DNA of 20,215 bases from IMG/VR virus record IMGVR_UViG_3300028840_000774, positions 1 to 20,215 of that record; one strand, 5' to 3'. Both the position numbers and the translations under genes were made by a program. Below, in pieces: positions 3,827 through 20,196 of this stretch; position 1 is the stretch's first letter, and every line of letters begins with the position of its first letter. This stretch comes from a virus. The notes beneath the pieces are model-generated. The model was not told the DNA's origin. It saw only the letters and a list, made by a program, of their open reading frames with translations, and ran no database searches.

Positions 3827-4457
3827 TATCGGTTACCTTTCGACTTCTTTTCTTCGTATTCGCGTAACTGCTGGTCGATTTCTTGTTCTAGCAGCATGTA
3901 CTCGACTCGGTCGAGGAAGTAACGTTGTTGCCAGTTTTCAACTTCTTCCGGTGATACTGTAAAGAACCTGGCAACTTGAAACGTCAAAATCTTTTCCTCA
4001 CTTAAGCTTGTTTCGGGGATTTTTGGTGTAAACCCCCTAACTCTAGCATCTCGTCCAGGGAAACGCCTAGCGTCTCCTGAAGGGTAAAAAAAACTTTGGG
4101 GTAGTTCTCCTTTATCGCATGGGCTAAAGCGAGGTAGAATTCTTCCGGACGGTCATCAAAGTAGTCAGATTCGTCAAGGTCTGTTATCTCAAATTTACCT
4201 TTCTCATTTACGATTACCGCTTCTCGGAGTACCGCCTTCGCAATGTCCCAAATAGTATCAGAGTCAAGAGTTTTAATCACGGAGAGCAAAGCTCCCATTT
4301 CGCTGTCTGTCTCCGTGACCGCGTCCATCGCTCGGGCGACCATCTGGAAGGCTTTATGGAATACTTCCATAGATTCTCTTCTGGTGAGCGGTTCCAAGTT
4401 GTACGCCGACTCACCAGAAAACCCTTTGACTTTAAATTTTATTTGGTCTCTTTTCAT
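3826..4457 (-). CDS. Tail assembly chaperone, long form made by -1 frameshift
   Basis: This is the frameshifted extension of the chaperone at 4002-4457. The first 143 codons are shared. At G-GGT-TTA (4035-4029) a tandem -1 slip leads into a 67-codon frame that has no start codon of its own near the junction. It reads TPKIPETSLSEEKILTFQVA, continues RFFTVSPEEVENW and EYMLLEQEIDQQLREYEEKK, and stops at 3828-3826. The fusion would be 210 residues. The extension resembles second-frame chaperone segments of other long-tailed phages (aromatic V-S-P-x-E-V-E-x-W followed by a Leu/Glu/Gln helix). Its stop overlaps the tape-measure GTG by one base, which is the expected gene arrangement. By analogy with lambda G/GT the long form would bind tape measure and tube subunits during tail assembly and be absent from the virion. 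Confidence 0.82.
4002..4457 (-). CDS. Tail assembly chaperone, short form
   Basis: A 151-residue acidic, mostly helical protein starting MKRDQIKFKVKGFSGESAYN. It lies between the tube gene and the tape measure, the standard place for the tail assembly chaperone. Residues ~1-25 look like a small beta strand region and the rest is helical, ending LGVSLDEMLELGG before the slip site. A purine-rich AAGGGTGGGGA precedes the ATG. The last nine codons after the slippery heptamer (LHQKSPKQA) are read only when ribosomes do not shift. No homology beyond this positional and architectural match is claimed; the clear second-frame extension makes the identification strong. Confidence 0.8.
   Translation of the reverse strand: MKRDQIKFKVKGFSGESAYNLEPLTRRESMEVFHKAFQMVARAMDAVTETDSEMGALLSVIKTLDSDTIWDIAKAVLREAVIVNEKGKFEITDLDESDYFDDRPEEFYLALAHAIKENYPKVFFTLQETLGVSLDEMLELGGLHQKSPKQA
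4029..4035 (-). other. Programmed -1 ribosomal frameshift site GGGTTTA
   Basis: Reading the minus strand, codons 142 and 143 of the tail chaperone lie in the heptamer G GGT TTA, a canonical X-XXY-YYZ slippery sequence in the correct frame. After slippage the two tRNAs pair with GGG and TTT and the ribosome enters the 67-codon extension. The zero-frame stop (TAA at 4004-4002) lies about 25 bases downstream. No strong downstream hairpin is obvious by eye. A purine-rich AGGGGG overlaps the site from upstream and might act as an internal Shine-Dalgarno-like stimulator (inference). Confidence 0.82.
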
Positions 4458-18795: not shown

Positions 18796-18824
18796 ATTGT
18801 AAACGATTGTAGACTAATTGTCAA
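18796..18824 (-). promoter_or_regulatory. Sigma-70-like promoter upstream of terS
   Basis: On the minus strand TTGACA (18824-18819) is a perfect -35, followed after exactly 17 bases by TACAAT (18801-18796), one base from the consensus -10. Counting 7 bases on gives +1 at 18789, the G of the terS GTG. The promoter begins immediately after the protease stop (18827-18825), so it separates the accessory protease from the packaging operon. Confidence 0.8.
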
Positions 18825-18831
18825 CTATTGT
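18796..18831 (-). repeat. Four phased ACAAT direct repeats over the terS promoter
   Basis: The pentamer ACAAT (plus strand ATTGT) recurs at 18796-18800, 18806-18810, 18817-18821 and 18827-18831, at intervals of 10, 11 and 10 bases, that is, one per helical turn. The first copy is part of the -10, and the third overlaps the -35. The flanking bases are only partly similar. It may be an operator or just AT-rich promoter composition. Confidence 0.5.
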
Positions 18832-19481
18832 ATAAAACCAGGGGCGAATTCTTTGAGATAAGCCTTGACAACGGGGGCGCTTTCGATTAATACAGCAAAA
18901 ATTTTCGTCTCATCGGTGGTCATCTTGACGAGTATGCCAAGGGTGCAATCTTTCAAGCCACCGGAGTACACCAGAGCGCCACCGGACATGCCACGTTTAG
19001 AAGTAGAGTTGACAAGTACCTCACTAATGCCCTTTTGGTCAATATAGTAGTCGATATCGCCGATATAGGTCAATAAAGGACCCCTCGGCCTACCATACGA
19101 CGTTGTATAACCATCCGGTGGACGGCCAGTGCATAAAGGGGCAATCGGACTAGACACCATATTAACCTTAAGCAACGCAATGTCGGCGTCTTCGTCCTCT
19201 GCGATTACTTTCGCAGGGATAAAGCCCGATGACCACCAAACTCGGATATGAGCGTAGTCATTGTATTGCCTATTCGCGATTACATGCTGAGCAGTAAGCA
19301 AAAGACCATCTTCGTTGACAAAAAAACCAGACCCACGCATGCCATGGCCCCATACTTCGACATACGTGTCTACATTGTAAGACTCATGCAACGAAGTATC
19401 TGGGGGGTCCAGTCCCCTAGGCGATACACTTTCGCACGCTGCGAACAGTACGACAGCAAACAAGTAAAACACACGTTTCAC
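18825..19481 (-). CDS. Trypsin-like serine protease with lipoprotein signal peptide
   Basis: A 218-residue protein read from GTG at 19481: GGAGG lies 7 bases upstream, and this start places MKRVFYLFAVVLFAAC at the N-terminus, a signal peptide with lipobox (A-A-C, C16). The reading that begins 28 codons earlier lacks a ribosome site and buries the signal. The mature part is a chymotrypsin/HtrA-like domain. The catalytic triad is H66 (LLTAQHVIA), D100 (EDADIALLKV) and S166 (SKRGMSGGALV), with the oxyanion-hole glycine G164. There is no PDZ domain. It should be a lipid-anchored envelope protease of a Gram-negative host; E17 after the lipid cysteine is not the classical inner-membrane retention Asp. 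It lies between nucleotide-metabolism and packaging genes, with its own structured leader, so it looks like an accessory (moron-like) gene. Confidence 0.83.
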   Translation of the reverse strand: MKRVFYLFAVVLFAACESVSPRGLDPPDTSLHESYNVDTYVEVWGHGMRGSGFFVNEDGLLLTAQHVIANRQYNDYAHIRVWWSSGFIPAKVIAEDEDADIALLKVNMVSSPIAPLCTGRPPDGYTTSYGRPRGPLLTYIGDIDYYIDQKGISEVLVNSTSKRGMSGGALVYSGGLKDCTLGILVKMTTDETKIFAVLIESAPVVKAYLKEFAPGFIQ

Positions 19482-19503
19482 CTTTCTGCCTCCTTTTAAA
19501 TGC

Positions 19504-19664
19504 GCTGGGTACGGTATAGCGCAAGACGGGTTGTCTATGTCGCTATCAAACCGAACAGCCGCCACAACTCTGCCAGTCTGCTACCTCGTAACAGGGTGAG
19601 CCTTAGGGCCCGCCGCAAAGCTCCTTTGTAAGCTGTAAATGTCTTGCACTATACCGTACCCAGC
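19504..19664 (-). repeat. 24-base inverted repeat with 113-base spacer (structured leader?)
   Basis: The arms are 19504-19527 and 19641-19664. They match at 23 of 24 positions, containing GGGTACGGTATAG and GCAAGAC on one strand. In the minus-strand RNA the single difference is a G-U pair, so all 24 pairs can form; in plus-strand RNA it would be a C-A mismatch. The spacer can add inner stems: GAGCTTT with AAGGCTC around a GC-rich loop, and GTTGT with ACAAC. The 3' arm ends about 10 bases before the GGAGG of the protease gene. It is the only non-coding gap over 100 bases in the window. A regulatory leader RNA, RNA stabiliser, packaging site or operator pair are all possible. No U-run follows, so it is not a standard terminator. 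Confidence 0.72.
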
Positions 19665-19673
19665 TTTGTTGTA

Positions 19674-19844
19674 TTAGGACAGCATTACCTTAGGGTCACA
19701 AGATACTCCACAATAATACCCATTAATGTCGTTCATCTCCAAAACGTCGTATACTGGCATCATATCAGACAATACAACTAATGTGTCTGACCCGTGCCTG
19801 TTTTCTGCATCTTGAAGCTTTTCAATCAATTCCCTAATCGTCAT
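19674..19844 (-). CDS. Small phage protein of unknown function
   Basis: A 56-residue protein beginning MTIRELIEKLQDAENRHGSD. I choose the ATG at 19844 (AAAAGG ten bases upstream, overlapping the end of the reductase-like gene by 11 bases) over a TTG seven codons earlier. The 'M-T-I-R/K-E-L-I-E-K-L' start followed by a short beta part (TLVVLSDMMPVYDVLEM) is a common plan of small phage proteins without known function. Two Cys (YYCGVSCDP) near the end are not enough for a metal site call. Confidence 0.62.
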   Translation of the reverse strand: MTIRELIEKLQDAENRHGSDTLVVLSDMMPVYDVLEMNDINGYYCGVSCDPKVMLS

Positions 19845-20196
19845 TATCACAATACCTTTTCTCAAGCCAATGCGCCACGTAGTCCAATACTGACGTAGCC
19901 ATTGGTCTAATATCTGGTCTATCTGTCAAGCCTTGCGGCTCAAATCTTGTATGTTTAAATTTAGCCACTATCGCCGAGATGGGAACCCCGTATTGCAAAG
20001 AAACCGACGCCATGACTGCCCAGGCGTCAGCGAACCCACTTAACGTAGAGCCTTCCTTGTCCATGTGGATAAATATCTCACCGGGGGTTCCATCCTCATA
20101 CTCTCCGACGGTCACGTAGCCCTTATCCCCGTCGACAACAAACTCATGGGTCACTGCTGACCGAGTGTCCTCTAATCTAGTCCGCGCTGCTGTCAT
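19834..20196 (-). CDS. Stand-alone C-terminal domain of class II ribonucleotide reductase (NrdJb-like, TSCPD-type)
   Basis: A 120-residue protein closely resembling the end of B12-dependent ribonucleotide reductase: SAVTHEFVVDGDKGYVTVGE, then YEDGTPGEIFIHMDKEGSTL, SLQYGVPISAIVAKFKHTRF and EPQGLTDRPDI, ending SVLDYVAHWLEKRYC. In most NrdJ enzymes these blocks follow the catalytic barrel on the same chain; in Pseudomonas the enzyme is split into NrdJa and NrdJb, and this part lies on NrdJb. No catalytic barrel is in the window. It may complement a phage NrdJ encoded to the right, or a host enzyme. Start: ATG 20196, with AGGAG 2 bases and AAGGAGG 12 bases upstream. The short NrdJ tail with redox Cys is missing. 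Confidence 0.8.
   Translation of the reverse strand: MTAARTRLEDTRSAVTHEFVVDGDKGYVTVGEYEDGTPGEIFIHMDKEGSTLSGFADAWAVMASVSLQYGVPISAIVAKFKHTRFEPQGLTDRPDIRPMATSVLDYVAHWLEKRYCDNDD

Follow-up and report, generated by a model that had tools for sequence, protein, structure and literature searches.

An inverted repeat with 24-nt arms fills most of the space between two genes of an uncultured phage from an environmental sample, and the best-supported reading is that, on the gene-sense transcript, it forms an intercistronic RNA closed by a long helix and is probably a target of RNase III. We give this reading about an even chance of being correct. The window, i.e., the whole stretch of DNA analyzed here, is 20,215 bases long and constitutes the entire IMG/VR record. 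Its gene set (tail sheath, major head, portal, head maturation protease, and terminase) shows that it derives from a myovirus-type phage, and the minus strand carries all of its main genes. The closest terminase of a known phage is that of Pseudomonas phage KPP23 (46%), none of the 80 + 80 terminase relatives from IMG/VR exceeds 50% identity to the window terminase, and the latter was not found in GTDB genomes. A search of IMG/VR for relatives of the protease, the TSCPD protein, and the terminase yielded a sole close one, IMGVR_UViG_3300017963_001126 (L005), which is 99.95% identical to the window phage over 10.9 kb; it is the same phage and reaches 2.6 kb further than the window on the upstream side. 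Past the window end, upstream of the early genes, L005 has at positions 20-169 a 150-nt hairpin that is AT-rich and near-complete (gene strand z -8.9). The TSCPD protein (PF12637; window 19834-20196, minus strand) is a stand-alone version of a domain that elsewhere forms the end of class II ribonucleotide reductases.

The arms of the repeat are 24 nt long, differ at a single position, and are 113 nt apart (Table 1), just as a sequence-only reading of the window had described them. When arms with a gap of 40-160 nt were scored, the observed repeat reached 23, while none of 100 dinucleotide-shuffled versions of the whole window scored above 16. The inverted repeat is therefore real and far beyond chance, and a coincidental origin, in favor of which no point was found, is refuted. 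Twenty-three of the 24 pairs of the arm helix are Watson-Crick pairs, and the lone arm difference is, as had also been stated, a G-U pair in minus-strand RNA and a C-A mismatch in plus-strand RNA. From this one pair the sequence-only reading argued for selection on a minus-strand transcript. Such an argument is uninformative, no better than a coin flip: whichever transition occurs in an inverted repeat, one strand will read G-U and the other A-C.

Folding of positions 19504-19664 gave -80.9 kcal/mol (z -7.4) for the minus strand and -70.6 kcal/mol (z -5.9) for the plus strand; the arm duplex by itself gave -46.5 and -43.0, respectively. As the interior 113 nt folds no better than shuffles (z -0.70 on the minus strand and +0.10 on the plus strand), the entire fold signal of the 161-nt element resides in the arms, and the closed multi-branch shape once envisaged from inner stems finds no support beyond chance. 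This null result does not count against an RNA, since the interiors of a family of phage N4 elements described below likewise fold no better than shuffles (z -0.75, +0.12, and -1.24).

The element fills a gap of 192 nt (19482-19673) flanked by a 63-aa open reading frame (ORF) and a trypsin-like lipoprotein gene. This is the largest gap between genes. A gap of 175 nt is also present at 3827-4001 (minus strand), between the tail assembly chaperone and tape measure genes. The latter stretch is open in another frame and probably extends the chaperone gene by a frameshift; a programmed frameshift is usual for this gene pair and fits the open frame. The 3' arm was correctly said to end shortly before the GGAGG of the protease gene. 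The proposal that the element is a leader controlling the ribosome-binding site of this gene is not supported. In a leader that sequesters such a site, the Shine-Dalgarno (SD) sequence pairs with the element in one state; in the predicted fold of a 320-nt context the SD is unpaired with the element, and in silico deletion of the element makes the SD more accessible, not less. Downstream of the protease gene, a near-consensus promoter precedes the terminase small subunit. Given this placement, the element is probably part of the transcript that comes before the late genes.

Table 1. Positions of the element, its neighbors in the window, and like-built elements of other phages
Feature	Position	Strand	Basis or remark
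161-nt element, arm to arm	19504..19664	-	repeat scan and fold
5' arm of gene-sense RNA, GCUGGGUACGGUAUAGUGCAAGAC	19641..19664	-	repeat scan
3' arm of gene-sense RNA, GUCUUGCGCUAUACCGUACCCAGC	19504..19527	-	repeat scan
113-nt interior, hairpins predicted, no better than shuffles	19528..19640	-	fold versus shuffles
Upstream ORF, 63 aa, no assigned function	19674..19865	-	stop codon 9 nt before 5' arm
Protease Shine-Dalgarno sequence, GGAGG	19489..19493	-	10 nt after 3' arm
Downstream gene, trypsin-like serine protease, PF13365, lipoprotein-like signal	18825..19481	-	GTG start at 19481
Strong sigma-70-like promoter, TTGACA-17-TACAAT, before terminase small subunit	18796..18824	-	consensus match only
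N4 long-stem RNA with 25-bp closing helix and tRNA-type T-arm	NC_008720 32933-33045		covariation
Two more N4 long-stem elements between tRNA genes	L117 32700-32797 and 33127-33222		repeat scan
N4-type RNA relatives	L126 300-411, L127 292-402, L128 285-395, L129 277-385, L130 277-384		homology
JD001-type element	Klebsiella phage JD001 (L114), NC_020204 248-345; also L119-L125		arm-to-arm matches

An RNA element on the minus strand, as proposed in the sequence-only reading, is thus still the likeliest reading, but the strand and inner-stem grounds on which it had been proposed fail. The RNA reading is supported instead because the element lies flush between a stop codon and an SD and because like-built elements occur in other phages, one family of which displays strong compensatory change. 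We infer that the element is transcribed and cut, that the released RNA has a function, and that the protease is affected, along the following lines. In the minus-strand transcript, the arms would pair into a 24-bp helix closing a 113-nt loop domain, the whole extending from the stop codon of the 63-aa ORF to the protease SD. RNase III of the host, for which the helix would be long enough, would cut on both sides of the helix, so that a loop-domain RNA of about 115-150 nt would be released and the 5' end of the protease mRNA would be fixed just before the SD. The minimum target of RNase III is a duplex of ~22 nt, and RNAs of lambda, T7, and T3 are cut by the enzyme (PMC5371410); the predicted helix, at 24 bp, exceeds this size. 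In its working mode the element may be likened to the T7-type intercistronic RNase III sites, and in its build to the long-stem RNAs of N4, JD001, and phiPLPE.

Terminase relatives and the phages phiPLPE, JD001, and N4 carry elements of like build in their non-coding DNA, with arms of 16-32 nt and 46-113 nt between them, and the long-arm repeat scan was also positive in KPP23. Seven terminase relatives (L017, L019, L021, L022, L023, L026, and L076) carry non-coding long-arm repeats of unrelated sequence with 64-103 nt between the arms; that of L026 is also positioned just before a start codon. Arm mismatches in the seven terminase-clade elements with transitions comprise 8 G-U pairs on the gene strand versus 2 on the other (one-sided P 0.055), an excess that is suggestive only. 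Gene-strand RNA of L076 2270-2414 has a T-arm-like hairpin (ACCUGUUCGACUUAGGU) just 5' of the 3' arm, as does the N4 element. In phiPLPE (L115; 46803-46932) and L077 (2569-2742), the arms and flanking bases are common to both, and the rest of the interior differs. A single RNA family embracing all of the relatives' elements was rejected; their interiors are without common sequence, and some arms consist of tandem motifs.

Phage N4 (L117, NC_008720) has three long-stem elements among its tRNA genes. The one with the 25-bp closing helix recurs in G7C, Pylas, and FSL SP-076, as well as in the T4-like Yersinia phages TG1 and phiR1-RT. It is a genuine RNA structure, because the pairs of its closing helix change on both sides. 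Such double changes affect 16 of the 25 pairs while the interior is conserved, the covariation score of the helix is 0.491 versus 0.220 in shuffles, and 96% of cells pair, a share that drops to 35-55% once the partner is shifted by one to three columns. Selection at the RNA level has thus acted on a like-built element in another phage group. In a cmscan of the N4 region, only the four tRNAs appeared among the Rfam matches at gathering scores. A covariance model made from six phages of this type (R1) found no match in window positions 19504-19664 with filters off, and T4 rnaC (17 bits, E 0.81) was not accepted as a member of the N4 family.

A second group is typified by JD001 and is common to Jedunavirus, Gamaleyavirus, Lastavirus, Skatevirus, and Salmonella phage seszw. 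The JD001-type element is bounded by its arms and is ~95% identical in unrelated phages; paired changes are present in BUCT_47333, and in JYSS3 and Sasha the arms are retained with the interior replaced.

The element of the window is a single-copy sequence, present elsewhere only in L005. Searches of IMG/VR, GTDB genomes, phages, and plasmids revealed no diverged homologue, a paired-arm pattern search of IMG/VR and GTDB returned L005 only, and blastn against phages and plasmids gave no match. A 16-mer of the interior had seven matches in IMG/VR, with 46-57 of 161 positions agreeing, which were judged to be chance. No Rfam family exceeded its gathering threshold, and neither ARAGORN nor Rfam matched the element to a tRNA or tmRNA. 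An intrinsic terminator does not fit, as the loop is 113 nt, GCAUUUAAAAGGAGG follows without a U-run, and no terminator was called there. A T7-like promoter, suggested by CACTATA in one arm, was rejected since the motif is not repeated. The element is an orphan, with no relative that reveals its function in the collections searched.

The intercistronic position of the element, flush with stop codon and SD, and its interior without structure beyond chance would also suit a helix that acts purely in cis, blocking exonucleases or separating the translation of the two genes without any RNA being released. We regard this as rather unlikely, since a simple hairpin does not need a 113-nt loop, cutting of a 24-bp helix by RNase III is to be expected, and the predicted accessibility of the SD is not improved by the element.

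Long arms of near-perfect identity might also be two inverted copies of a 24-bp site at which DNA is bound by protein or recombined, such as a packaging site, a replication origin, or an invertible segment. Tandem short motifs make up the arms of L019, L021, L022, L029, and L042, a feature that resembles DNA sites and counts against the RNA reading, and in the JD001 group the interior at the same locus is swapped while the arms stay. Nonetheless, a DNA-level site is unlikely, because the arm motif has no further copy in the 20-kb window or in L005, where more copies of a protein-binding site might be expected, and no invertase or integrase is found among the proteins examined of this incomplete genome; cruciform extrusion would also be disfavored by a loop of 113 bp. 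In the two records that carry it, the segment has the same orientation. That the element is a discrete 161-bp unit, and that unrelated phages carry the JD001 element from arm to arm, could alternatively point to a MITE-like mobile insertion with 24-bp terminal inverted repeats. This is very unlikely, as no target-site duplication is seen (the flanks are CAACAAA and GCATTTA) and no other copy exists in IMG/VR, GTDB genomes, phages, or plasmids, L005 being the same phage.

The RNA reading places the window element beside scattered, poorly described phage RNAs with long closing stems, which it resembles, in a grouping by shape only. As a tentative extension, these may constitute a class of phage non-coding RNA, widespread and for the most part unrecognised, to which the window element belongs; its members would have only a closing helix of ~16-30 bp around a modular interior in common and would be exchanged as cassettes between unrelated phages. 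The helix would serve as the handle for processing, and the interior would do the work. If it is an RNA, the window element points to a stable small RNA, or to a processing site, within an operon of an uncultured myovirus-type phage. The comparison that it prompted appears more important than the element itself. Both the N4 element and the JD001 element are conserved and have spread horizontally across phage families, and annotation omits them save for an occasional "tRNA-Undet" given to the N4 type, which no Rfam family covers. A search of phage intergenic DNA for long closing helices would make the class testable.

Among known systems, T7, T3, and lambda have intercistronic RNase III processing sites that, like the helix predicted here, are long duplexes between co-transcribed genes, but T7, lambda, and P22 have no long repeat of the window kind in the same scan. 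T4 rnaC and rnaD are also phage-encoded non-coding RNAs (119-139 nt), but they lie in a tRNA operon and have no long closing helix in their predicted fold. Like the window element, the JD001-type element runs from arm to arm as a discrete unit, lies in non-coding DNA, and belongs to a phage whose terminase is related; unlike it, the JD001 type is conserved and horizontally spread, and the two share no sequence similarity. The N4-type RNA comes close in build, being non-coding, about 110-160 nt long, and closed by a helix of ~25 bp around an interior that folds no better than shuffles. On the other hand, the N4 element sits in a tRNA cluster and has a T-arm, while that of the window has no T-loop and no covariance-model match. 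Judged by the covariance model, the window element is not a member of the N4 family and is similar to it in build only.
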